Virus record (IMG/VR): IMGVR_UViG_3300030333_004008
Coordinates: 1-48,650 of that record
Strand: one strand, 5' to 3'
DNA from: a virus
Length of the DNA stretch: 48,650 bases
This document shows, in pieces, positions 1,418 to 43,122 of the stretch. The translations under genes and the position numbers were made by a program. Positions within the stretch are counted from its first letter, which is position 1; every line of letters begins with the position of its first letter. A model generated the notes under the pieces. It ran no database searches. It was not told the origin of the DNA and saw only the letters and a list, made by a program, of their open reading frames with translations.

Positions 1418-1572
1418 TGAGATTTCTCCTCATATATTATTGCTACTTTAAATTGTAATATCATTTTTTGTATAGCTCTTATTACTTTTTCTGCATGCTC
1501 CAATTCTTGCTCAATATCCTTTAAAGTATTGCTAAACTTAGTTTTTTCTATCCAAATAGTTTCTCTTGCCAT
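1414..1572 (-). CDS. Small coiled-coil-like protein, 52 aa
   Basis: Starts MARETIWIEKTKF and continues as one long amphipathic helix (KDIEQELEHAEKVIRAIQKM) ending KSQ. A strong GGAGG stands 6 nt before the ATG, and the stop overlaps the next start (ATGA). It is the first gene downstream of the structured 1589-1753 element, and a perfect 8-bp hairpin lies only about 15 nt before its ribosome binding site, so translation may be controlled by that RNA. Function unknown. Confidence 0.7.
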   Translation of the reverse strand: MARETIWIEKTKFSNTLKDIEQELEHAEKVIRAIQKMILQFKVAIIYEEKSQ

Positions 1573-1588
1573 GATTCCTCCTAATTAT

Positions 1589-1753
1589 TTAAGGTATTTT
1601 CTTAATTTACCTTAATATTTTAAGTAAGCACCCACCAACAGCATCATGCAGTACAATTTGCCTCAGGTTACCCTATCGATGATGGGCGCTAAAGATCTAT
1701 AGCTGTTTTGGGCACTTGTCATTAAGACCCCTATAGATCATGTCTCCTACCAA
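1589..1753 (-). ncRNA. Structured leader or small RNA between two micro-genes
   Basis: No convincing protein fills this stretch. On the minus strand it holds three successive structures: (i) a perfect 9-bp inverted repeat GATCTATAG/CTATAGATC (1731-1739 with 1694-1702); (ii) a two-part stem, AGCGCCC/GGGTGCT (1690-1684 with 1633-1627) stacked on ATGAT/ATCAT (1683-1679 with 1647-1643), enclosing a small AGG-GTAA-CCT hairpin with a GNRA loop (1674-1665); (iii) a perfect 8-bp stem TTAAGGTA/TACCTTAA (1615-1608 with 1596-1589) just before the ribosome binding site of the 52-aa gene. It could be a cis-acting leader or an independent RNA. No known riboswitch class was matched. Confidence 0.5.
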
Positions 1754-1909
1754 TTAATGTAACCAGTATTTAGCTTTAGGCCACCTACCATTTACTATAA
1801 CATTATGCAAAAACCTTATAGCATAACATTTAACTGTAATACTTAACAGCATATTAATTATATAGACAAAATCATACATTATATAATAAGACCAAGTTCC
1901 AGGTTCCAT
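1754..1909 (-). CDS. Small membrane protein, 51 aa
   Basis: Starts MEPGTWSYYIMYDF. A hydrophobic segment (about residues 7-31, including YDFVYIINMLLSIT) is followed by a basic C-terminal tail rich in Arg, Lys and Trp, predicting one membrane span with the tail in the cytoplasm. GGAGG lies 6 nt upstream of the ATG. It is the first gene after the intrinsic terminator that ends the large RNA, so it depends on readthrough or on a separate promoter. No family is recognised; a holin-like or host-membrane role is possible. Confidence 0.6.
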   Translation of the reverse strand: MEPGTWSYYIMYDFVYIINMLLSITVKCYAIRFLHNVIVNGRWPKAKYWLH

Positions 1910-1922
1910 AATACCTCCAAGT

Positions 1923-1956
1923 TATTAAAAAAATAAAGCCAGCTTTTACACTGGCT
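1923..1956 (-). terminator. Intrinsic terminator ending the large structured RNA
   Basis: Read leftward: perfect stem AGCCAG/CTGGCT (1956-1951 with 1942-1937), an 8-nt loop, then a U-rich tail (TTATTTTTTTAA). This is the textbook minus-strand intrinsic terminator. It supports a discrete transcript ending here, because the protein-free region lies immediately upstream of it. An eight-codon reading frame (start 1983, peptide MYYIRDR) with a perfect AAGGAG ends 4 nt before the stem. Confidence 0.85.
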
Positions 1957-2766
1957 GTATTATCTGTCCCTAATATAATACATAAATTCTCCTTTGTTAG
2001 TTAGCTAATTATACTAAACATAAGAAGTATTAAAGACAAATCTTATAGAGTTGAGATTACACTCTTTACGCTGATACTTTCGTCCTATGTTCCCGAAGGT
2101 TTTGGACTTATCCACTTGATTTGACTCAAGTACATCAGCAAGCTCAGTAGTTATAGACTACCACTCTTAACGTTACAGCTGTTTCAGCAACTAATCACAT
2201 CAATTAAGTCACAATGACATCCCAGGCTGCAGACCCAAGACTGACGCTTTCGTCACAAAACTTTCAAGTTGTTGACCAACCATCCAGCACCTTATTCACC
2301 TAAGTGTAAGGTATTAGAGCCCTATGCTCTGTAACGCCACAAGAACTTTGTCGTTTTTATATTCATTTTTATATATTATTTAACGATTAAGTTAGTTTTA
2401 GGTATCCCAAGTCCAGTGCTCGTGGATATGCTCGCTATCTTACGACAGTGAATACATAACTAGACTCTTCCAATGTCTTTGGGAGACATCAAATCTTGAC
2501 ACGACATATCTCATATCACTACGAGATTACCATGTTTTCATGACACCCAGACTCACCTCCCACAGGCTCATCTTAAGTATCTTACAGGTTTATTTATTGT
2601 ATGTCACCATACTCACAGCTTTACCATCAGCCTGACTACCATTCTCTCAGAGATTACCCCATTGAGATTAGCAGCAATACCTGCTTGCTTCCGTTGGACC
2701 ATTGCTGGCGCTATTAACTTTAACATATGTTACCATATGCTATCCTATAGATCCGAAGCGACCTAT
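1925..2766 (-). ncRNA. Large, highly structured noncoding RNA (~840 nt; GOLLD/ROOL-like candidate)
   Basis: About 800 nt without a credible gene, more GC-rich than its neighbours, bounded by a TATAAT box upstream and an intrinsic terminator downstream. Perfect hairpins on the minus strand: CATATG-GTAA-CATATG (2739-2724); CAGCAAT/ATTGCTG (2707-2672); GTATG-GTGA-CATAC (2612-2599); CATG-AAAA-CATG (2542-2531); ATCTC/GAGAT (2527-2508); ATGTCT/AGACAT (2489-2473); AACTT+CGTT/AACG+AAGTT (2393-2344); AGAGC/GCTCT (2330-2316); ACCTTA/TAAGGT with inner CAC/GTG (2312-2289); TGACG-AAAG-CGTCA (2255-2242); GCTG-AAA-CAGC (2188-2178); GTAGT/ACTAC (2161-2147); AGAGT/ACTCT (2065-2047). A three-way junction is closed by GCTGAT/ATCAGC (2139-2070), with branches ACTTGA/TCAAGT and GTCC/GGAC, the latter capped by a CC-UUCG-GG hairpin. 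GOLLD and ROOL are known phage-associated giant RNAs often encoded near tRNA genes, and a tRNA lies 540 nt upstream. Membership is inference; it could be an unrelated family. Confidence 0.65.
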
Positions 2767-2771
2767 TATTC

Positions 2772-2777
2772 ATTATA
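2772..2777 (-). promoter_or_regulatory. Candidate -10 box for the large RNA
   Basis: A perfect TATAAT on the minus strand preceded directly by TG, 8-14 nt downstream of the stop of the 68-aa gene. A start near 2765 would place the 5' end just before the first hairpins. The -35 region at 17 nt spacing (ATAATA) is poor, so this may be a phage-specific or extended -10 promoter, or chance in AT-rich DNA. Confidence 0.35.
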
Positions 2778-2785
2778 CATAAAAT

Positions 2786-2992
2786 CTATGAACTTATTAT
2801 CTTAAAGCCCTTAGGCAATACAATTCTTTCAATCCGTCTTCGTTCCACATAATTATCTTTATCCATCATCATTCTACACTGAGTATCTAGTATATCTTTC
2901 ATCGCAACTAAGAAAGCTTGCGTTTGATTCTCAATACTATCTAATTCAACTACCTCTTCAGGTAATACATCTACAACACTAGGCTTTGCCAT
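2786..2992 (-). CDS. Small acidic protein of unknown function, 68 aa
   Basis: Starts MAKPSVVDVLPEEVVELD and ends RRRIERIVLPKGFKIISS. The middle (ENQTQAFLVAMKDILDTQCR) is predicted helix; the N-terminus is acidic and the C-terminus basic. AAGGAG lies 6 nt before the ATG. It follows the CxxC micro-gene by about 40 nt and precedes the large RNA. The base composition is less AT-biased than in the structural genes. No family is recognised. Confidence 0.7.
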   Translation of the reverse strand: MAKPSVVDVLPEEVVELDSIENQTQAFLVAMKDILDTQCRMMMDKDNYVERRRIERIVLPKGFKIISS

Positions 2993-3031
2993 AATTTCTC
3001 CTTATTGGTTTGAGAGTTCAAAGAGCCAGGA

Positions 3032-3163
3032 TTATTTCCCAGCTCTGTTACGCAACTTCTTCTGCGCCTTGATATAAGCATTCTTATACCTAGTAGCAGT
3101 GTCAAGCAACGTAGTAATATACTGCTCACGCACAGTACATTTCTTACAAGTAGCATTCTTCAT
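3032..3163 (-). CDS. Small basic CxxC protein, 43 aa
   Basis: Starts MKNATCKKCTVREQY and ends in a Lys/Arg-rich helix (KAQKKLRNRAGK). The single CKKC pair (residues 6-9) could bind zinc as half of a dimeric site. The AGGAGG ribosome binding site is excellent (5 nt spacing), which decides this frame over a longer overlapping frame at 2971-3156 that lacks one. It lies between the tRNA and the 68-aa gene. Function unknown; a nucleic-acid-binding role is only suggested by the charge. Confidence 0.7.
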   Translation of the reverse strand: MKNATCKKCTVREQYITTLLDTATRYKNAYIKAQKKLRNRAGK

Positions 3164-3305
3164 GAACACCTCCTTTCTATTATATTTAACAGTTCTTATT
3201 AGAAAGGTTGACTTGTAACATTTAATGAGATAGACCAGCGCTAAGCAACTCAGTTCATGACTCTGATATAGCCCATCTCATAGGTTCGCAGTGGAACAGT
3301 TTAAT
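3164..3305 (-). other. Intergenic spacer with inverted repeat between tRNA and CxxC gene
   Basis: 142 nt without a gene. It contains a perfect 7-bp inverted repeat ATGAGAT/ATCTCAT (3281-3275 with 3231-3225 on the minus strand) enclosing 43 nt with weaker internal pairing. It may be the 3' trailer of the tRNA transcript or another small structured RNA. No convincing promoter was seen; a TATAAT at 3184-3179 would start transcription inside the ribosome binding site. Confidence 0.35.
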
Positions 3306-3381
3306 TGGTTGCGGGTATTGGAATTGAACCAATCAAGACCTGCTTATGAGACAGTCGACATCACCAGACGTCACACCCGCA
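3306..3381 (-). tRNA. tRNA with anticodon CAU (tRNA-Met or tRNA-Ile2), CCA encoded
   Basis: 76 nt fold cleanly: a 7-bp acceptor TGCGGGT/ACCCGCA, D-arm GACG/TGTC with an 8-nt GG-containing loop, anticodon loop CTCATAA (CAU at positions 34-36), a 5-nt variable loop, T-arm ATTGG/CCAAT with loop TTCAATT, and an encoded ACCA end. Two deviations: position 8 is G rather than U, and the outermost anticodon-stem pair is A-G. The U1-A72 pair and the lack of three G-C pairs in the anticodon stem argue against an initiator. Elongator Met and lysidine-type Ile2 cannot be separated by eye. An encoded CCA is usual for phage tRNAs. Confidence 0.9.
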
Positions 3382-3512
3382 TTAATTCTTATGTGTGCTA
3401 TATGTTGGTATATATATACTATACACATAGGCGCATGATTTACTGCAGACACACCGTCTACACAGGCTATCAATAACTACAAGTAATTATTAATATAATA
3501 ACAAAGAAAGTT
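3382..3512 (-). other. tRNA 5' leader with two hairpins
   Basis: No gene. On the minus strand, upstream of the tRNA, there is a 6-bp hairpin GTAGAC-GGTGT-GTCTGC (3461-3445, one G-U pair) and then a 7-bp stem TATGTGT/ACACATA (3429-3423 with 3396-3390) whose loop is an alternating TA tract. These may be processing signals for tRNA maturation or part of a further small RNA. No second tRNA could be folded. Confidence 0.35.
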
Positions 3513-3548
3513 AGAGAGGCCGATCTCCGAATGTGTTCAAGCCTCTCT
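3513..3548 (-). terminator. Hairpin after the first leftward gene, possible weak terminator
   Basis: Perfect 8-bp inverted repeat AGAGAGGC/GCCTCTCT around a 20-nt loop, 10 nt past the stop of the 89-aa gene. The following minus-strand sequence is only moderately T-rich (AACTTTCTTTGTTATT), so it may terminate partially, protect the mRNA 3' end, or separate mRNA from tRNA by processing. Confidence 0.45.
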
Positions 3549-3557
3549 ACAAAAGAT

Positions 3558-3827
3558 TTACTTTTTATCAGCGAGTTTCTCTATCAACTTGTTAGTAGTT
3601 GCTTGACTCTTAGCAAACATCTCGAGCATACCCTCAATGTTCTTTTGAGTCTGAAACTTTCGTAACATATCAAAGCCTATTAATGCTTCTTCAGTGTTAC
3701 CAGCTGCTAAGTTAGCTACAGATACACTCTCTACAGCAGTCTTAGTTTCTTCTGATACACTGATATCATCAGCTCTAGTAAGCCCATTAATTATCTTACC
3801 ACTCGCATACTTATTTAGTTTAGACAT
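3558..3827 (-). CDS. First leftward gene, small alpha-helical protein, 89 aa
   Basis: Starts MSKLNKYASGKIINGLTR and is predicted mostly helical (EEALIGFDMLRKFQ, GMLEMFAKSQATTNKLIEKL). A longer frame starting at 3857 exists, but AAGGAG sits 5 nt before the ATG at 3827, inside the extension, so the shorter form is preferred. It is the promoter-proximal gene of the leftward operon, a position where phages often place host-takeover or regulatory proteins. No family is recognised. Confidence 0.7.
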   Translation of the reverse strand: MSKLNKYASGKIINGLTRADDISVSEETKTAVESVSVANLAAGNTEEALIGFDMLRKFQTQKNIEGMLEMFAKSQATTNKLIEKLADKK

Positions 3828-3894
3828 ACGTCTCCTTCCGTTGTTAAAAGTATTCAAAAAATCCTAATCCAAAAATAACGTAATCACGATTGTG

Positions 3895-3914
3895 AAAAAC
3901 CCCTGTTAAGGGGG
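3895..3914 (-). terminator. Compact leftward terminator or attenuator upstream of the first leftward gene
   Basis: Minus strand: stem CCCCT/AGGGG with loop TAAC, followed directly by TTTTT. It lies about 70 nt before the first leftward start codon. Either it blocks transcription entering from the right, or it is an attenuator in the leader of the leftward operon. The hairpin is flanked by an imperfect direct repeat, ATTGTG(A/G)AAAA, at 3889-3899 and 3919-3929 on the plus strand. Confidence 0.6.
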
Positions 3915-3976
3915 TACCATTGTGGAAAAGACCGCATACCAAAATGCTACAATTTTTAAAACCTTCCTTTTTTCTA

Positions 3977-4006
3977 TTGTTTTTATAATATTACATGTTT
4001 TATATT
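3977..4006 (+). promoter_or_regulatory. Candidate rightward promoter of the structural operon
   Basis: TTGTTT (3977-3982) and TATATT (4001-4006), 18 nt apart, resemble a sigma70 promoter. A minus-strand TATAAT (4009-4004) overlaps the -10, so this spot could fire in both directions. It lies in the 390-nt gap between divergent genes (3858-4245), where promoters are expected. No CDS is supported in that gap. Confidence 0.4.
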
Positions 4007-4017
4007 ATAGCCATCAG

Positions 4018-4037
4018 TAATTGAAGAAATTCAATTA
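4018..4037 (+). promoter_or_regulatory. GAAA-capped hairpin in the leader of the rightward operon
   Basis: A perfect 8-bp stem TAATTGAA/TTCAATTA closes on a GAAA tetraloop about 12 nt after the candidate -10. At the 5' end of a transcript it could stabilise the mRNA; as DNA, it could be a cruciform promoter element of the kind used by virion RNA polymerases such as that of phage N4. The rest of the leader to 4245 has only weak pairing. Confidence 0.45.
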
Positions 4038-4245
4038 TCACCCTTGAAGGCCTAACAAGCAAGTAGAGGGTCAGACGTTGGGTTGCCTCCTCATATAGAG
4101 ATCTGGTTTGTCCCCGATAACTGGTAGAAATTGCTTTATTATAAGTTTGAGTATGGGAGAATATAACTGGCTCAAAACGAAATATGAAGTTAAATAAATT
4201 TTTCAAAAAAAATTTCATTTGTGTCAGGGGTTAGGAGCATCTAGT

Positions 4246-4434
4246 ATGGCAAAAAAAGAATATGTGCTAAAAATAATATATGATGGTAAAAGCGATGAAT
4301 GTGTTCACTTATCAGAACAATTTAATGAAGTAGATTATTGTATTGAAGTAGATGGAGTAGATATACCCATTAGTAAAGAAATGGGTGATTATATGATAGA
4401 ACATTTAGATCATGAAATATTAGGAATAGCCTAA
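4246..4434 (+). CDS. First rightward gene, small acidic protein, 62 aa
   Basis: Starts MAKKEYVLKIIYDGKSDECV and ends with a helical MIEHLDHEILGIA. The mix of strands (VLKIIYDG, YCIEVDGVDIPI) suggests a small alpha/beta fold. AGGAG lies 8 nt before the ATG at 4246; a TTG 27 nt upstream could extend it but has no better signal. It heads the rightward operon just before the terminase genes, a position often held by a packaging accessory or regulatory protein. No family is recognised. Confidence 0.75.
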   Translation: MAKKEYVLKIIYDGKSDECVHLSEQFNEVDYCIEVDGVDIPISKEMGDYMIEHLDHEILGIA

Positions 4435-33735: not shown

Positions 33736-36700
33736 ATGGGTAAGTATAAAAGTTACGAAGATTGGCGAAATAGAACAGCTATTAAGCCTACAGTTCAAAC
33801 AGAACCAGCAAAACCTCTAGGATTACAATTACCTGGTGATCCTTTAAGTCCAACAGCTAGAAAAATGGGTGTTCAAACTGCAACACCTAAAGAGCCTACA
33901 TATACTTGGGTAGATGATTTCTTTTTATTTGATTTTGTTGGTAATGCTTTATGGGGTTTTGGTGAAACTTTTGTAGTACCTACTGTAGCTGACGTTGCAT
34001 CAGAAGTGTCTGGAGGTCCTGATCTATCTGCTCAATTTGGTTCACAAGATTGGAAAGATGAATCTTTAGCTGGTAAATTAGGATACGCTTTAGGTACAGG
34101 TGGTGGTGTTCTTACAGGTATTGGTGCTGTAGGTAAAGGTATAGGTCTTACAAGTAAACTTGCAGGCGCAGGTATGAAAAAAGCTGTTCAAGAAGCAGGT
34201 AAAAGGGCAGTAAAAGATTTAAGTGATGATGTAGCAAAGGGTATTATTACAAGCGCTAGTGATGATGCTGTAAAAACGGTTATAAAATCAACACGTACAC
34301 AAATTGACGAAGCAGGTAAAGAGGCAGCAGGAAGTTATAATTGGTTTAATTACTTTAAAAGGAAAGAAGCTAAGATGAATCCTTTTAATAGTTCTCCTGA
34401 ATTAACTTCAAGAGTTACTGATAATGTGCGAAAAGAAATAACTGAAATGCTTACAAAAGAATTAGGTGAAGAAGGTGTTAAAAAAGCTGGTAAAGAATCA
34501 TTTGATGAATCTGTAGAAAGAATGACATCGTCTGTTATAAATGCAGCATCACAAACAAGACATGTACATTTTGGGCAATCTATAACTCATAAGTTAATAG
34601 AACGTGGATGGAATAAAAAGATGGCTATTTTAGCAGGTGACATGGCTTATGAGTCTGTATTGTTAGCAACATGGGATGTAATAGCTGGTGAAACTGGTGA
34701 CTTTGCTGCTCAACAATATGGCTTAAATGAAAATGAATGGGGTTATGAAGAATGGTATAAAAGAGCTATGCATGGAGCGCAAACTGGTGCAATACTTGCT
34801 CCTATAAGATATATTCCTGGTGGTAAAGCAGTTCAATTTGGTAAAGCAGGAATGATAGCTGACTTTAGAGCTATGGGTAGTATGCTAAGAGCAAGGTTTG
34901 GAAAGAGTGCAAAAAACCAAAATGATAGTGCTTTATTAGCATTTGTAAATAGTTTTTCTAAAGGTGCTGATGATATTGGGGCAGCTTTTCCAGGCGCTGG
35001 GTTAACAAAAGCTGGTCTTGATGATATGATTAGCAAAGTAGGTAAAGGTACTTCATTAACTGCAAATGAGAGAGAAATTTTAGAAGCCGCTTACAATGGA
35101 GTAAAAAAATCTTTAGGTGGTAAGGATGGCCTTATAAGAAAACTTCAAAAAGAAATAGTACGAGATGGATTTGAATCTTTTACAAGAGCATCTGTAGGTT
35201 CTTTAGCTATGAATGCAAGAGCTTATTCAGCAGCGTATGATTCAGGAATATTATTTACCGAAGAATATCCTATGGATAAGCTAGTATTTGATCATTGGGT
35301 TGGTATGTTATATATGAAACGTGGTAAGAAATTTGACCCCAAATCAGCAAGATTACCTAAGTATTATGATCAAACAGGCTTAAATGGTAATGGTAGTGAA
35401 ATACAAAGGTTTTTACAATCCTATGAAAGATTAGGGTTTGAACCTGTTAAAAATGATATATACAATGCATTTACTGTAGGAGATGTTGAATCAGCTATAA
35501 AACTAGTTACAGATCAAGCTGCTAAAGATTCTAGTATTCAAATAAGTGAGTTTATAGAAAGTTCTAGAGCAGAATATGTTGATACAAATATAAATCAACA
35601 AAGATTACAAGAGTCTATAGACAATAAAGTTAAATTTGATCAAAGACCTCTACCTTTTCAAACTCATGTTCAAAAGAAAATTGGTGATTTAATTAAACTT
35701 CAAGCTCAACAAAAAAAGAATAACGAAACAGAAGCTGCTGCTAAAACTGCTAAAGAAGTAAATGATTTGCAAAACTTATTAAATATAGCAACTAAAATAT
35801 CATCATTATCTGCAGCAGGTATGGTTGGAAAACAAATGAAATATATGACTCAAGCAGAGGCTTTAGAATATATTAAAACATTTGACAATTTTAAACTTAA
35901 CGATGGAACAGTTATTGATTCTAGTAATTTAGATCTTATAGATACTAAAGTAGAGTTAGCTAAATTAAAAATAACTGAAAATATTCAACAAATGGGACAT
36001 CAATATATAAAAGATTCTTTAGGCTCAATAGGTTTAGATTCTATTGTAACTGAATCAAATGGTAAATTGCATGTTCATGAAACAGTTAGAGAGGCTTTAA
36101 AAACTATAAGTTTAGATTATGCTGGTAAACCTATAGCTGATGCTGCTCATTCTTTGCTAGAAACAATTGATTCTGCTAAAGCAGCAGGAAGTTTAGATGT
36201 TAGTAGCAAAGGTGTAGCTTGGAATCAAGAAAAAATAGAATTAGGCAAGCTAGAAAAGATGTTAGAAATTTATAATACCAGCACAGAATCTATGCATGAA
36301 CTTATGTTTAATGGTATGAATGGTAAAAAAATGGACAATTGGAGAGAAAATGTTCCAGGATTTACTAAACCAGACGCAGGATTTAAAGATAAATACATAA
36401 TGGGACAAACTGCTATCTGGCAATCTGTTCAAGCTGCAAATAGAATTAAAAGAAGCAGATTAGTTTATGAAGTTTTAGGTAAACAGGGCGGTGGTAGTCC
36501 AGAATTACAAGCAATGTATGCTAGTATACAAAAAAAATTAGGAGGCAATTCTAGATTTAGAGTTGTAGAAGAAGTTAAGCAAGGTGAAATAGGTGTAGAA
36601 GCATCTATGGAAGCCAACGAAATAGCTAATTTAGAAAGAATTAATAGAGTCTTAGAGTTGTTTGATAATACTGGTAAAACTGGCGCAAGAGATATAACTA

Positions 36701-39700
36701 AGGGTGAATTTGAAACTTTAAGTAAAGATTTAAATAAGGCTTTTGGAAATATATTTGAAAGCAGTAGTGAGTATAATGCTTTTATGAATGTTTTTGTATA
36801 TAGAGAATATGCAAATGAATTAACAGGTAATCCAAACTTAACTTCAGGTTTAAGAAGAGTTTTAGTTAATATGATGGATAGAGAATCTTTACTTAAAATT
36901 AAATCAGGAGGGTCTGTAGTAATTAGATCTGCCGAATCTTTAAGGCAGAGTGTTGTAAGGTTAAACTTACCTCCAGCAGAAAGAGATGCTCTGTTAAACA
37001 AAATAACTGAGTATGAAAATAAAGTAGAAGTTCCTTTAAAAGGTCAATTAAAAAATACAAAAGGTATTATAAAGTTTGGTGACAAACCAATTGATTTAGA
37101 TATGCCTGGTAGAGAACGTCAAAAATTATTGCAAGAAATAGAAAGCGCATTAGCAGAAGTAAATAAGTTTCATGTTTCAGAAAGCGCTAACTTACTTATT
37201 GATAACAATAAAATTCAAGAAAGAGTTTCTAATATGATGGCTCAAGCTGAGTCTATTTTAGATACAAAACCTGAGCTTGCTAAAGAATTAGTAAGTAAGG
37301 TTATGGAGATTAGCACTGTTAATGAAAACGTTTTATCTTTGATTCAAAAATATATGGCTACTAATGATGCTATAGGTTTAAGAACATTAATGGATGTAAG
37401 CGAAAAAATGCAGCAATTTGAGCAAAAATTAACAATAGGGGACCCTAATAAGGCTACATCAAAAACATTAGATAAATTAAGGCAAGAATTTGAATCTATA
37501 GTTATTAAAGCGCTAGATAAAAGGAATGAATTAGGTAGGTTTGAAACTTATGAAGATGTTCAAAATTATATTGCAGATAGAATAAATAATGTTTTAAATA
37601 GTGATCGTGTAGGAAGACCTCATCAAACTCACACATCTATTAGTCCTAGCCAATATGAATCTAAATGGGGTGTATCTGCAGAAACTATGACAGATATAAT
37701 GACAAATCCTAAATTATTATTTGAGAGATTAGATCAAATGCAAGGCCAAGTTAAAACTAACATTATGAATAATCTAGGTATGAAAAGTATTACTTATAGA
37801 GAAATGTTAGTAGATGGTATTAACTCAGTTATAAGGGGTACTTTTACTGAAAAAGATTATATTCGTATTGTAATGAAACCTTTTATAGATAATATGAAAC
37901 CTTTAGTTGAAGCTCATATTACTAGACAAAAGAAAAGTGGGAAAGAACCAGGAACATATGAAGATTTCATATTAGATACTATGTTTTTAATGCAAAGCGC
38001 TTTAGGTTCTAAAAAAGTTCATTTAGCAAAATATGAAAATGGAATGGTACATATTGAAGAAGCAAGTATTTCTAATTGGAATGTAGGTATAAATAAACTA
38101 CAGCAATCACTAGGATTGTTTGATGTAGGTGATATATTATTATTTAGTCCAGAAATATCTTATAAAGGCACTAGAAGCTCTTCTTTACCTCCAGAACAAA
38201 TACAAAAGGTTTATAATCAATTAGCAGCAGGATTACCTATAGCTCCTAATATTAGAGAAGTAATGTCTACAAACGATATACTTTTCTTTGATAAGTTTAA
38301 AAGTTATGTAGGTGGTAAAGGTAAAAAAGGACAATTAGAATTAATTCCTGTCCAGTTAGATGAAAAAACTGTAGTAATTATTCCTCAATATTCTATGCAA
38401 AAAGTAACAAAAGCGTGGTCATTGGCTGATGGTCCTTTAAGAAGTCAATTAATTAATGAACTTGCAACAACTGCTATGCCTGTTGCTGATGCTGCTAGAA
38501 TAGTAGAGAATTATTTTAAAAGAGAATTAGGTGCTACAATGGACAGTAAAGGAAACTTTACAATTGAACCTAATGCTGAAAACGTTCAAAGACTTGTTTC
38601 TATAACAAGATTGTTAAACGCTTTTAGTGGACAAAGATTAGCAGATGTTATGGCTGGAAATACTACAGTAACAGAAGTATTATCAGATTTAAAATATATA
38701 AAATTAGATTCTCCTAGAGGAGGGTTTGCTTTAACTCAAAGAAACTTAGAGACTGCTAAATTTTTTCTTGAAACATTTATAGATCCTAACTCTAACATGA
38801 GAGAAGTTGTTGATATATATAATAAACAATTCTTTGGTAAAGATGGTAAGACACTTACTAAACATAGAACTTTAAACTTGTTTGATGAAAGTGGTGCAGG
38901 CGCAAGCTTCTTTGGAACTAAAGAGTTAGCTAAAGAACAATTAAGGCAACAAATTCAATTTAATAATCCTAAATTAAAAGAATCTGAAATTCAAGAAAGA
39001 GTTGATCTAATTATGGAATCTTACGAAACAGTCCATGCATCAGCTCAAAATGGTGAAAAATATTTATCTTTACCTGAAATGGCAGCAATGTTAATGAGTA
39101 AAGGTGCAAGAACAGATTGGTTTATTTGGGGAGATAAGCTAGATATAAATGGAAAAATTGTTTATCAAAAAGATAGTAAAGGTAATTTTATAAAAGATAA
39201 AAATGATAGGTTTGTTCCTGTTCAAACTGTAGTAGGATTTAATGTTGCTATTAAACCTATAGAAATGTATAAACATTTTGATCCTGTTAAAGGTGAGCTT
39301 ATTACGCATGTAGGTAAAACAGCTTATAAATATCATCCAGAAATGGATAAACTTATGAAAATAGGTGGGGATTATTTTACTGATTCTATTGGTTTTGAAA
39401 GCACACATAAAATTCATGAGGTATCAAATGGTGTGGAAACTAGAAAGCCTGGTGTGCATTTAGAAAGAATACCAGGAGAAACAGATTTTCAAAAATCAAT
39501 GTTTGAAAGAGGGTTGCCACAAGAATCAGTTAATGAGGTTGTTGAAATAGGTAGAGAAGGGATAATGATTAAATCTATAGCTGGTATTCATGATGCTACT
39601 TTAAGTTATGGATTTGGTAATTTAATGTCTAATAAAGCTATAAGATCATTAGCTGAAATGACTGGTCAAAATAATGTTGTTAGTGAAATGATACAAACAT

Positions 39701-42700
39701 TTAGTTCTTTATCAGAAAATCCATTTGCATATCAAAAAGTAGTAACTAGACTTAAAAACTTTGAACATGAAAGTGGTGGAACTATAAATAAACTTATAGG
39801 TGCAGAAGCTGTGTTAAATGCTAACGGTTTACCTTTGTTTGAATTTATGCAACCTTCTGTAGAAAAGATGGTTTCAAGTGATTATATGGGTGGTAGAAAC
39901 TTTGCATCTAGTTCTGTAAGTTCAGGTAAATACAATGTTATGTCAGCAGGTTCTGGATATAGCTTGCCTGATAGAAGAGGGGGAGTTCAACATTCATTTG
40001 GTGGATCTGGAATGTCGCATTCAGAACATAGTACAGATATATCAAGCATGTATAAAATTTCTGGCGGAAAAGTTGAAAGATTAAATCCTAGAGAAGGTAT
40101 TAGTCTTGTATTTAAAATAAATGAAAATATGATTAATAAGTTCTTTAAAGGAAATCAAAGTATAATTGGTATTGAAACAGGTATGGATGTAGTAATTACT
40201 CATGATGGCCATATATTAGGACCACATCAACAATATATGAGAAAAACTGCAGGTTCTTTAAATAAAGTAGGCAAGCAAATAATTGAATTTGAACAATTTA
40301 TTTTAGATTCATACAATGTAATATTAGAGTCTGCTGTTAAGTCTGAAGGTGTTAGAACATTAGGTGATTTAGCTATGTATTTAAATGGAACATTAGATAA
40401 TTCTGCATGGAAATTAGGTGATTATAATAAGACTTATGAGTTAAACAGCCATTCAAATAAAGCTGATGTAAGAAATGAAAACGCAGCATCTACAGTAACT
40501 CAAAAAATGAGAAACTTTGTTTGGGGAACAGGTAAAACAGGTAATGATTTTCAGTCTGTCCATCTTGCTAAAGTAGACTTAAGAGTTCCTAAAGTAGGTA
40601 TGAATGATTGGGTTATTACTCGTGTTGAAAAACTTTTAGATAGAAGAAGAGGTCCAGTTAGTGAGATGAATTACTTAGACGTAATACAACCTCAAGATGC
40701 TGACTTTGATTTAGATAAATCATCTAGTTTCTTTGCACTTCCTGGTGAAGTTGTTAGAGAAGCTTATAACGTTGCTGGATACAATGATCCTGCAAGTATG
40801 GAAGTTTTTGATAAAGCATTTAGTGAAGTTAAATTAGATAATCCTTTACAAATGACTAACTATGCAGCGGTATTAAAACAGTTAGAATCTAAAAGAGCAC
40901 CATTAATGAGACAAATATCTACTCTTAGTACGTTATTGCAATACATATCTACTAAACAGGAGTTATTTAAACCTGGAACAGCTTACTCTCAATCTATTAT
41001 AGATGGTAAAGTAGCAGGAGCTAACAAAAACTTTAAGTTATTTGAGTTTAATTATGAAGGCGAAAAGTATATTGTTGAATTAAAAAATGATGCAGCATTT
41101 GTAGACGCTATGACGCATACTAAAAATCTTATTAAATCTACTATTGATATATATAAAGAAAGAGGAAATATAGAACAAGTAGATATGGTAAAAGAGGCTT
41201 GGTTAAATCCTGATCATGGATTTTTAAATATACGTAGGTCAAAAGTAAAAGATAAAGCTGAAATTATTACTTATGAAGAATTACCTAGTGCTGTAAATAG
41301 AGATGGTTTAAGTCCAAAAGCTTCTATTGAAGGGTTTATACAAAAGATATTAAGACCAATGGATCGTATACATAACTTAATACATATGACAGAATCTTTT
41401 GCTGATGGAACATCTAGAAAAATGTCTGCATTTGAAATGCTTTATAAGTATGAACAAAACTTATCTTTAATGAAATTTGCATCATTTAAGAGAGATAATA
41501 AAGGTAATTTAATTTTTGATAAAAATAATAAAGTATATCAACAGAATGAGTATGGTTCAATTGTAGATAACTTATTAGGATTCTTAGGTGAAGGGTATAA
41601 AAAAGGACAAACTAGATCTGGTTTGTCAGCTAACCCTGTTATTCAAGCTATGGTAGGCTTAAGAAATTCTAGAGAAAATTTCCATAAATCTATTCCTTCT
41701 GAATCATCTATTGCTGAAGTAGTTTTAGGTCTTCAAACAAGAGATAGTAAAATTAGTGATGCAGTTAAAAAATACTTAAAAGATCAAAAAACATTTGCTG
41801 GTCTTGAAAGCATTATATTTAACATAGATAAAATAGAAGATGTAGTTAATTCAATGCAAAGAAAAGGCTTGTTAAATACAGCAAGCGGTAAATACTGGCA
41901 AGCTGAATTAAAAAGAAATCAAATGATTAGAGATAATATAGTTAAAGAGTTAAATGATCCTGCTAATATTTATGATCTACACAAAACAAGCGTTCTTCGT
42001 AAAGATAGAAAAGGTGTAGCTCAAAATCATATTGCTATTTATAGAAGAAAAGGTGATGAAACATTTTTAGTAGGCGAGTTTAAACAGGGTGAAAGATATA
42101 AAGCGAGAAAAGGTGATGTTATATATGATAACCCTGGTCGAATTATATTAGGTGATAAAACTGTTAATATGGTTAGACGTGCAATGCATGATGCTTTTGC
42201 TAGAGATTCTAGAAACTTTAATGAAACAGAATTGTTAATGGTTAGAAATCTTATGTTTAATCCTAAGAACGGATTCTTTAAAACATTATCTAACGAAAGA
42301 CGTAACTACACTGACCCTAGTAAACCTTTAGATTCTAGAAGGTTATCTCTTATGGGCGAAGTAGATATGGTTGTAATGGCAGATTTTCTGCAAAGGGTAA
42401 AAAATATTTCTCCAGCAAAAGCAGAACAAATTATGCAACAATTTTTATTTGATTTATTAGTTCCTAAAGTATCAGATAATACTTGGGAAATTATAGGTAA
42501 AGATAGTAAAGGTAATAATTTGTTAAGTCCTTCTTTCCAGAAAAATACTACAAATGAAAGAATGGTATTTAAGTTTTTAAATAAAGCAATGCGTGGTGAA
42601 GCAGAAAATGTTATGAGTATAGAACAAGCTACACAAATCTTTCAAAGATTAAATGATAGGTTTAAAACAGCATTTGTTAAGCAACATGATGGTACTTTGC

Positions 42701-43122
42701 AAGGAGATGTATTTAATTTTGAAACTAGTAAAAGAAAATATGGTGAGTTTGGATTTATATCACCATTAAAAGATTTGCCTAATTTTGTATTTGATGTTAA
42801 TTTAGAAAGACAAGGGCAAGATTTAATGCTTCAATTTGTAAATGGATCATACTTTATGGACCCTGTTCAATTATATAGAATGACATATAATTTAAGTAAT
42901 CAAAATAAAATGGGTCCAGGTGGAACAATGCCTTCACATGGTGAAATAAGTTCTGTTATGAAAGGTATGTGGGAAGGTAGTTCAGTGCTACAATTAGGTA
43001 AAGATGGAGCATGGTATCAGCCTAAGAAAACATTTAGAGATAATAGTTTTCATAATGGTACAAAAACAAAAGAAAAAAGCGCATTAGAAGAATTGCAAGA
43101 AATTTGGACAAAATGTTTTTAA
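33736..43122 (+). CDS. Giant virion protein with RNA-polymerase-like DFDLD motif, 3128 aa
   Basis: Residues 2323-2328 read DFDLDK, preceded by LRVPKVGMNDWVITRVEKLL (about 2281-2300) and a hydrophobic strand NYLDVIQPQDA. This mirrors the beta-prime active-site barrel of cellular RNA polymerases (R-x-P, then NADFDGD), and the DFDxDK form matches the single-chain virion RNA polymerases of crAss-like phages, where the three Asp bind catalytic magnesium. The rest is mostly helical. Residues about 105-145 are Gly-rich and hydrophobic (KLGYALGTGGGVLTGIGAVG), as in ejected proteins that cross membranes. AAGGAG precedes the ATG. Known: crAss-like phage particles carry such an enzyme. Inferred: this protein is packaged and transcribes early genes. 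The second barrel was not located, so the assignment needs structural confirmation. Confidence 0.7.
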   Translation: MGKYKSYEDWRNRTAIKPTVQTEPAKPLGLQLPGDPLSPTARKMGVQTATPKEPTYTWVDDFFLFDFVGNALWGFGETFVVPTVADVASEVSGGPDLSAQFGSQDWKDESLAGKLGYALGTGGGVLTGIGAVGKGIGLTSKLAGAGMKKAVQEAGKRAVKDLSDDVAKGIITSASDDAVKTVIKSTRTQIDEAGKEAAGSYNWFNYFKRKEAKMNPFNSSPELTSRVTDNVRKEITEMLTKELGEEGVKKAGKESFDESVERMTSSVINAASQTRHVHFGQSITHKLIERGWNKKMAILAGDMAYESVLLATWDVIAGETGDFAAQQYGLNENEWGYEEWYKRAMHGAQTGAILAPIRYIPGGKAVQFGKAGMIADFRAMGSMLRARFGKSAKNQNDSALLAFVNSFSKGADDIGAAFPGAGLTKAGLDDMISKVGKGTSLTANEREILEAAYNGVKKSLGGKDGLIRKLQKEIVRDGFESFTRASVGSLAMNARAYSAAYDSGILFTEEYPMDKLVFDHWVGMLYMKRGKKFDPKSARLPKYYDQTGLNGNGSEIQRFLQSYERLGFEPVKNDIYNAFTVGDVESAIKLVTDQAAKDSSIQISEFIESSRAEYVDTNINQQRLQESIDNKVKFDQRPLPFQTHVQKKIGDLIKLQAQQKKNNETEAAAKTAKEVNDLQNLLNIATKISSLSAAGMVGKQMKYMTQAEALEYIKTFDNFKLNDGTVIDSSNLDLIDTKVELAKLKITENIQQMGHQYIKDSLGSIGLDSIVTESNGKLHVHETVREALKTISLDYAGKPIADAAHSLLETIDSAKAAGSLDVSSKGVAWNQEKIELGKLEKMLEIYNTSTESMHELMFNGMNGKKMDNWRENVPGFTKPDAGFKDKYIMGQTAIWQSVQAANRIKRSRLVYEVLGKQGGGSPELQAMYASIQKKLGGNSRFRVVEEVKQGEIGVEASMEANEIANLERINRVLELFDNTGKTGARDITKGEFETLSKDLNKAFGNIFESSSEYNAFMNVFVYREYANELTGNPNLTSGLRRVLVNMMDRESLLKIKSGGSVVIRSAESLRQSVVRLNLPPAERDALLNKITEYENKVEVPLKGQLKNTKGIIKFGDKPIDLDMPGRERQKLLQEIESALAEVNKFHVSESANLLIDNNKIQERVSNMMAQAESILDTKPELAKELVSKVMEISTVNENVLSLIQKYMATNDAIGLRTLMDVSEKMQQFEQKLTIGDPNKATSKTLDKLRQEFESIVIKALDKRNELGRFETYEDVQNYIADRINNVLNSDRVGRPHQTHTSISPSQYESKWGVSAETMTDIMTNPKLLFERLDQMQGQVKTNIMNNLGMKSITYREMLVDGINSVIRGTFTEKDYIRIVMKPFIDNMKPLVEAHITRQKKSGKEPGTYEDFILDTMFLMQSALGSKKVHLAKYENGMVHIEEASISNWNVGINKLQQSLGLFDVGDILLFSPEISYKGTRSSSLPPEQIQKVYNQLAAGLPIAPNIREVMSTNDILFFDKFKSYVGGKGKKGQLELIPVQLDEKTVVIIPQYSMQKVTKAWSLADGPLRSQLINELATTAMPVADAARIVENYFKRELGATMDSKGNFTIEPNAENVQRLVSITRLLNAFSGQRLADVMAGNTTVTEVLSDLKYIKLDSPRGGFALTQRNLETAKFFLETFIDPNSNMREVVDIYNKQFFGKDGKTLTKHRTLNLFDESGAGASFFGTKELAKEQLRQQIQFNNPKLKESEIQERVDLIMESYETVHASAQNGEKYLSLPEMAAMLMSKGARTDWFIWGDKLDINGKIVYQKDSKGNFIKDKNDRFVPVQTVVGFNVAIKPIEMYKHFDPVKGELITHVGKTAYKYHPEMDKLMKIGGDYFTDSIGFESTHKIHEVSNGVETRKPGVHLERIPGETDFQKSMFERGLPQESVNEVVEIGREGIMIKSIAGIHDATLSYGFGNLMSNKAIRSLAEMTGQNNVVSEMIQTFSSLSENPFAYQKVVTRLKNFEHESGGTINKLIGAEAVLNANGLPLFEFMQPSVEKMVSSDYMGGRNFASSSVSSGKYNVMSAGSGYSLPDRRGGVQHSFGGSGMSHSEHSTDISSMYKISGGKVERLNPREGISLVFKINENMINKFFKGNQSIIGIETGMDVVITHDGHILGPHQQYMRKTAGSLNKVGKQIIEFEQFILDSYNVILESAVKSEGVRTLGDLAMYLNGTLDNSAWKLGDYNKTYELNSHSNKADVRNENAASTVTQKMRNFVWGTGKTGNDFQSVHLAKVDLRVPKVGMNDWVITRVEKLLDRRRGPVSEMNYLDVIQPQDADFDLDKSSSFFALPGEVVREAYNVAGYNDPASMEVFDKAFSEVKLDNPLQMTNYAAVLKQLESKRAPLMRQISTLSTLLQYISTKQELFKPGTAYSQSIIDGKVAGANKNFKLFEFNYEGEKYIVELKNDAAFVDAMTHTKNLIKSTIDIYKERGNIEQVDMVKEAWLNPDHGFLNIRRSKVKDKAEIITYEELPSAVNRDGLSPKASIEGFIQKILRPMDRIHNLIHMTESFADGTSRKMSAFEMLYKYEQNLSLMKFASFKRDNKGNLIFDKNNKVYQQNEYGSIVDNLLGFLGEGYKKGQTRSGLSANPVIQAMVGLRNSRENFHKSIPSESSIAEVVLGLQTRDSKISDAVKKYLKDQKTFAGLESIIFNIDKIEDVVNSMQRKGLLNTASGKYWQAELKRNQMIRDNIVKELNDPANIYDLHKTSVLRKDRKGVAQNHIAIYRRKGDETFLVGEFKQGERYKARKGDVIYDNPGRIILGDKTVNMVRRAMHDAFARDSRNFNETELLMVRNLMFNPKNGFFKTLSNERRNYTDPSKPLDSRRLSLMGEVDMVVMADFLQRVKNISPAKAEQIMQQFLFDLLVPKVSDNTWEIIGKDSKGNNLLSPSFQKNTTNERMVFKFLNKAMRGEAENVMSIEQATQIFQRLNDRFKTAFVKQHDGTLQGDVFNFETSKRKYGEFGFISPLKDLPNFVFDVNLERQGQDLMLQFVNGSYFMDPVQLYRMTYNLSNQNKMGPGGTMPSHGEISSVMKGMWEGSSVLQLGKDGAWYQPKKTFRDNSFHNGTKTKEKSALEELQEIWTKCF

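Follow-up and report, generated by a model that had tools for sequence, protein, structure and literature searches.

The RNA cage formed by GOLLD, a family of giant phage RNAs, is among the largest RNA-only assemblies known. In its solved example, GOLLD env-38, cryo-EM revealed a 14-mer arranged as a closed RNA cage, and the same paper cites a ribosome pull-down (PMC12286853). Env-38 was found downstream of a Met-tRNA, and phage-linked expression has been reported for other GOLLD members (PMC12286853). A second relevant RNA, a ribosome-rescue RNA (tmRNA) reduced to its tRNA-like domain (TLD-only tmRNA), has been described in mycobacteriophage DS6A (PMC4131195, PMC11915505). Strong inhibition of tmRNA is reported for a molecule of similar type, and titration of SmpB may be the cause (PMC4131195).

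We analyzed a 48,650-base virus contig (IMG/VR record IMGVR_UViG_3300030333_004008, the whole of which is called the window here) that encodes a terminase, a portal protein, and an SU10-type major capsid protein. On its minus strand, opposite the virion genes, is a large RNA whose membership in GOLLD is near certain. The first-pass annotation had described about 800 nt without a credible coding sequence and with a GC content above that of the flanks, and both descriptions hold. About 730 to 830 nt contain no credible frame, and the longest ORF on the minus strand of 2771-1937 is 38 aa (shuffled mean, 63). GC is 0.39 to 0.40, compared with 0.31 in the left flank, 0.36 in the right flank, and 0.32 in the whole window. 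The locus folds with a z score of -6.8, which 0 of 20 shuffles reached. Its predicted fold energy is much lower on the minus strand (-243.8 kcal/mol) than on the plus strand (-172.9 kcal/mol), so the minus strand is the sense strand. We counted 11 nonoverlapping perfect hairpins of at least 5 bp (shuffled mean, 4.05; maximum, 9) rather than the fourteen or more first claimed. The other structures listed earlier, which were hairpins with GTAA and GTGA tetraloops, a UUCG hairpin, and a junction closed by GCTGAT/ATCAGC, are all present on the minus strand.

In an Rfam scan, GOLLD (RF02032) was the only family above its own cut-off in the window. The match (2467-2048, minus strand) covers all model positions (1-416) with 155.2 bits and an E value of 6.5e-43. 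This exceeds the 150-bit cut-off by 5 bits, and the model itself covers the 3' domain only. Besides GOLLD, no large-RNA Rfam family, ROOL included, was matched at gathering score in the window or at E values up to 10 over 1500-4300. The first-pass annotation had suggested a GOLLD or ROOL member, or a new family of like style, to be judged by the covariance models of both families, by covariation, and by whether a protein frame was conserved. With GOLLD above its cut-off, no ROOL match, strong pair covariation in both domains, and no protein frame found, that suggestion stands and resolves to GOLLD. The conserved body and the parts of its 3' domain are as follows.

About 2048..2771, minus strand: GOLLD conserved body, 5' and 3' domains (RF02032 on 2467-2048; 5' part aligned to five relatives)
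2048..2467, minus strand: GOLLD 3' domain, RF02032 positions 1-416 (155.2 bits; covariation)
2345..2400, minus strand: variable AU-rich linker within the 3' domain, left without pairs in the RF02032 alignment
2070..2139, minus strand: junction with GCUGAU/AUCAGC as its closing helix, hairpin 2131-2114, and a UUCG-tipped arm (helices 2, 3, and 4, all with compensatory changes)
2048..2064, minus strand: 3'-terminal hairpin with the conserved loop GUAAUCUCA (helix 5 of the covariation test)

In the five helices at the end of the 3' domain, 21 of the 24 pairs tested had double changes among 15 GOLLDs (that of the window included), and 93.4% of cells were paired. None of 500 shuffles reached the covariation score, and the signal was lost when the partners were slid. 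The choice of helices was based on a single sequence together with the Rfam consensus, which favors them somewhat, but the effect is far above both controls. In the solved GOLLD structure, the linker is disordered and lies inside the cage, a role that would apply here by homology (PMC12286853). A candidate stretch for the self-complementary kissing loop between GOLLD subunits (L21a) reads CUGCAG in the window (2232-2227, where the stem is poorly defined), GGCC in the related record L201, and GGCA in L203 and L157.

The remainder of the body is the 5' domain.

2468..2771, minus strand: GOLLD 5' domain, about 304 nt, the "cap" domain in the solved structure (covarying P1 and P2; CCAG.AATGG motif)
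2747..2766, minus strand: 5'-terminal P1 hairpin, AUAGGUC-GCUUCG-GAUCUAU (covariation)
2724..2739, minus strand: P2 hairpin with the GNRA loop GUAA (covariation)
2599..2612, minus strand: GNRA hairpin GUAUG-GUGA-CAUAC, kept in L201, L203, L157, and L200

The stretch 2771-2468 could be aligned to the corresponding region of L201, L203, L157, L200, and L202. RNAalifold returned almost no structure for 13 diverse 5' domains aligned by sequence, and therefore we tested P1 and P2 in hand-chosen stretches. In P1, 2 of the 3 pairs counted had double changes and 100% of cells were paired, and in P2 the values were 5 of 5 and 98.3%. Together this is 7 of 8 pairs and 99% of cells (12 sequences), and the P2 loops among relatives are GUAA, GCAA, GUGA, and GCGA. 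The first two hairpins and the motif GCGCCAGCAATGGTC also occur in Lactobacillales prophage GOLLDs. Therefore, as in GOLLD, the 5' domain of the window RNA stands apart, is less conserved, and has helices of its own. The window RNA also has the phage setting, the nearby tRNA-like gene, and the variable unpaired linker of this family. Taken jointly, GOLLD identity and a cage-type architecture are highly probable.

We also compared the ends and surroundings of the RNA with those of related phages. L204 is the nearest relative found. Its identity to the window is about 96% in the GOLLD body and 94.6% in the upstream part of the locus, and the L201 GOLLD is 78 to 83% identical to that of the window.

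3309..3382, minus strand: tRNA-like gene about 540 nt 5' of GOLLD, its anticodon-like loop containing CAU (Rfam tRNA-Sec, 34.8 bits, below cut-off)
2786..2992, minus strand: conserved 68-aa ORF directly 5' of GOLLD, kept in L204 and L201
2771..2796, minus strand: scar where the CDS-less tmRNA of the sisters L204 and L201 is deleted in the window (alignment; cmscan)
2772..2777, minus strand: TATAAT box directly 5' of the conserved start, a possible promoter with no good -35 element
About 1934..2041, minus strand: lineage-specific insert 3' of GOLLD, roughly 105 nt, absent from L204 and L201
1995-1989, minus strand: ribosome-binding site in the insert
1983-1960, minus strand: 7-codon ORF MYYIRDR in the insert
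1956-1937, minus strand: intrinsic terminator in the insert, a strong match in a terminator scan
1754..1909, minus strand: small hydrophobic ORF, 51 aa, 3' of GOLLD, which starts close after GOLLD in relatives

The first-pass annotation had bounded the RNA by a TATAAT box and a textbook terminator, with its 3' end at 1925. The box exists, but it is not conserved in L204 (which reads GAACAATG at this position). Likewise, the terminator is strong but sits in the insert that both sisters lack. Because both sisters lack the terminator insert and L204 lacks the TATAAT box, we place the conserved RNA at about 2769-2048, and the family end at about 2048 replaces 1925. The terminator was acquired recently, and the promoter is putative. 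In L204, an 82-nt tRNA-like RNA lies between the 68-aa ORF and GOLLD, whereas the window has none. In other relatives, the 5' end of GOLLD directly follows a tRNA or tRNA-like RNA, and therefore GOLLD is likely to be processed out of a longer transcript there, as judged from this arrangement. The tRNA that had been noted beside the RNA corresponds to the tRNA-like gene at 3382-3309, but its call is weak because ARAGORN found no tRNA there and the tRNA-Sec score is below cut-off. Its anticodon stem is imperfect, it is conserved in L204 (8478-8551), and a similar stretch occurs in Escherichia phage Av-05. This gene, in Av-05, was the only part of the locus matched by plain BLAST against isolate phages and plasmids, because GOLLD is too diverged for that search. 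A weak preQ1-II riboswitch match (25.7 bits, against a cut-off of 47) overlaps the ribosome-binding site of the mini-ORF and was judged to be due to chance.

The region 3' of GOLLD bears on whether the RNA is a cis-acting leader or attenuator, that is, a GOLLD within a long UTR that governs the small ORFs following it. In L204 and L201, a few tens of nucleotides separate the last GOLLD hairpin from the start of the next gene. In these and in L203 and L157 the ORF has a ribosome-binding site and no obvious terminator lies between, and in the window a 7-codon ORF resembling a leader peptide precedes a terminator. However, the ORFs that follow GOLLD differ from one relative to another and are unrelated (among them a small hydrophobic one and one for a DVDGT-motif protein), the mini-ORF and its terminator came with a recent insertion, and the solved GOLLD is a free-standing multimer. 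We consider a leader very unlikely. Slightly less likely still is a decaying GOLLD that lost its tRNA-like neighbor, gained the insert, and no longer functions. The deletion of the CDS-less tmRNA and the insertion of the terminator cassette relative to L204 would fit decay, but the roughly 96% identity of the body to L204, a score above that of L204 (155.2 versus 147.8 bits), and retention of the tested helices and conserved loops argue against it. Least likely of all is ROOL or a wholly new giant RNA family merely resembling GOLLD, which would share the length, phage setting, and tRNA neighborhood and would suit a score only 5 bits above cut-off with close relatives (L202, L203, and L204) just under it, because the match runs through the entire 416-position GOLLD model and includes the conserved junction motifs, no other large-RNA family appears at E values up to 10, and the alignment with high-scoring GOLLDs is collinear and covarying.

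Two other features of this region were seen. The ORF a few tens of nucleotides 3' of GOLLD in L203 and L157 starts with a DVDGT motif, which is typical of HAD-type phosphatases or kinases. There is also a second conserved structured element (window 1739-1625, minus strand; L201, about 1950-2062; L204, from 10094). It has a hairpin GATCTATAG..CTATAGATC with the stem GCGCCCA..TGGGTGC and AACAGC/GCTGTT complementarity. It has no Rfam match, and the few sequences have one compensatory change by eye.

As a further GOLLD, the window RNA adds a shared 5' domain, end polymorphisms, and a linkage between GOLLD and tmRNA. What is new is mainly the uncultured, probably marine, phage setting and the relatives that repeatedly have an adjoining tmRNA. 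The window terminase is less than 60% identical to that of every isolate phage (about 25% among the best matches listed) and 77 to 95% identical to those of many uncultured viral contigs. The company of these contigs suggests that this tailed phage is probably marine. Its structural half has an ORF of 3128 aa (33736-43122, plus strand). GOLLD was found in 4 of 50 related records scanned; the other 46 were without it, and many of those are fragments. It is also present in L204, and L157 has the same GOLLD motifs by alignment, so that at least five further phages of the group carry it. L202, L203, and L204 score just under the RF02032 cut-off. GOLLD is missing from several long related records and is therefore an accessory element, which many related phages do without (though many records are fragments). 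At the same site in GOLLD-less relatives, a search for another ornate RNA found only tRNAs above cut-off. We extended the search to GTDB genomes with a GOLLD end pattern. This gave 21 matches, and among 18 tested only L231 was above the GOLLD cut-off. L231 (1354-1817) is a GOLLD in the bacterial genome of Novimethylophilus kurashikiensis, with a tRNA gene inside it (1417-1490). Such internal tRNA genes have been reported for other GOLLDs.

The 82-nt element beside GOLLD in the sisters matches Rfam tmRNA (RF00023) with the coding part wholly skipped. Scores were 59.1 bits in L204, 53.2 in L201, and 45.6 in L202, the last of which is below the 47-bit cut-off. The element retains the tmRNA acceptor stem with its G3-U70 pair, which specifies alanine in tmRNA. 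RF00023 had no match in the window record (G000).

L204:9078-9159, plus strand: CDS-less (TLD-only) tmRNA beside GOLLD (RF00023)
L201:967-1047, plus strand: the same
L202:1956-2037, plus strand: the same
L044 (G075:1188-1270): TLD-only tmRNA near GOLLD
L061 (G082:11226-11308): TLD-only tmRNA near GOLLD

We also surveyed 100 viral records with the GOLLD end motif, of which 49 of the 50 tested were above the GOLLD cut-off. A full-length tmRNA was above cut-off in 43 of the 100. In 40 of these 43, it was no more than 3.3 kb away from the 3' end of GOLLD, and it was convergent (tail-to-tail) with GOLLD in 38, with many pairs only 115 to 180 nt apart (L002, L004, L005, L006, L025, L033, L040, L045, L052, L067, L081, and others). 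Fifty-three GOLLD records with enough downstream sequence had no full-length tmRNA near. We compared 45 loci, consisting of the 40 tmRNA-linked loci plus L201, L204, L202, L044, and L061. Shared flanking genes put 37 of them in one phage group, and L036/L091, L201/L204, L202, and L044/L061 were separate from it. The linked GOLLDs that could be placed form one clade of the GOLLD tree. Several linked loci (L002, L005, L033, L019, L058, and L093) have no tRNA in the fetched stretch, and therefore these are not simply tRNA islands. Conversely, 7 of 8 records found by a TLD pattern (L210-L217) were above the Rfam tmRNA cut-off and none of the 8 had GOLLD, which indicates that the link is not obligatory. 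Pistol ribozymes occur 2 to 3 kb from the TLD-only tmRNAs in three of them (L211:5916-6012, L213:6292-6379, and L214:10682-10769). We regard the linkage of GOLLD and tmRNA as real synteny, probably with at least two origins, and we found no report of it in the open-license literature.

By homology to env-38, the window RNA most likely forms a homo-oligomeric RNA cage. The 5' and 3' domains would fold independently, loop-loop and A-minor contacts would hold the copies together as a closed hollow shell, and the AU-rich linker would point into the cage. The 5' domain is shorter than that of env-38, so the cap and copy number may differ. Recurrent tRNA, tRNA-like, and tmRNA neighbors, together with the ribosome pull-down (PMC12286853), point to translation. 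We tentatively suggest that the phage might use the cage to control translation in its host, and that the cage might do so by holding or sequestering ribosome-associated factors or small RNAs, a cargo and a function that we infer from these associations. It is more doubtful whether GOLLD is the cage part of a phage module that acts with phage tmRNA on ribosome rescue (trans-translation) or small-RNA supply. Such a cage could, for example, store, protect, or sequester tmRNA/SmpB or tRNA-like RNAs during infection, with full-length tmRNA in one large phage clade and the TLD-only type in the window's clade. The window itself lacks the tmRNA linkage, and its phage would be a variant that lost the tmRNA partner. 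Even so, the linkage in relatives allows a role of GOLLD in translation or ribosome rescue to be tested, and if the link is functional, then the purpose of RNA cages becomes directly testable.

Among known systems, env-38 shares with the window RNA the complete 3' domain, including the junctions and the terminal hairpin, as well as an AU-rich linker, a phage genome, a separate and less conserved 5' domain, and a tRNA neighborhood. However, its 5' domain is 420 nt rather than about 304 nt, the terminator insert is specific to the window's lineage, and the oligomer solved for env-38 is a prediction for the window RNA. Lactobacillales prophage GOLLDs (Streptococcus and related; L034, L105, L096, and L116) have P1, a GNRA-capped P2, and GCGCCAGCAATGGTC in common with the window, and in several a tRNA abuts the 5' end. 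They belong to other phages and hosts and have little 5'-domain identity beyond these shared parts. ROOL is also a giant phage or prophage RNA near tRNAs and forms a cage (PMC12286853), but its fold is different, it is an octamer, and it had no Rfam match here. The DS6A TLD-only tmRNA resembles the 82-nt neighbor in the sister phages, being a tRNA-like domain without a coding part. The link to GOLLD, of which we found no description, is a feature of the sisters, and the window has no TLD-only tmRNA. This analysis extends GOLLD to further copies from an uncultured phage group and shows that Lactobacillales prophages share its 5' domain. It also provides a functional lead, which is the repeated linkage of GOLLD to tmRNA, including the TLD-only type that inhibits host tmRNA (PMC4131195).
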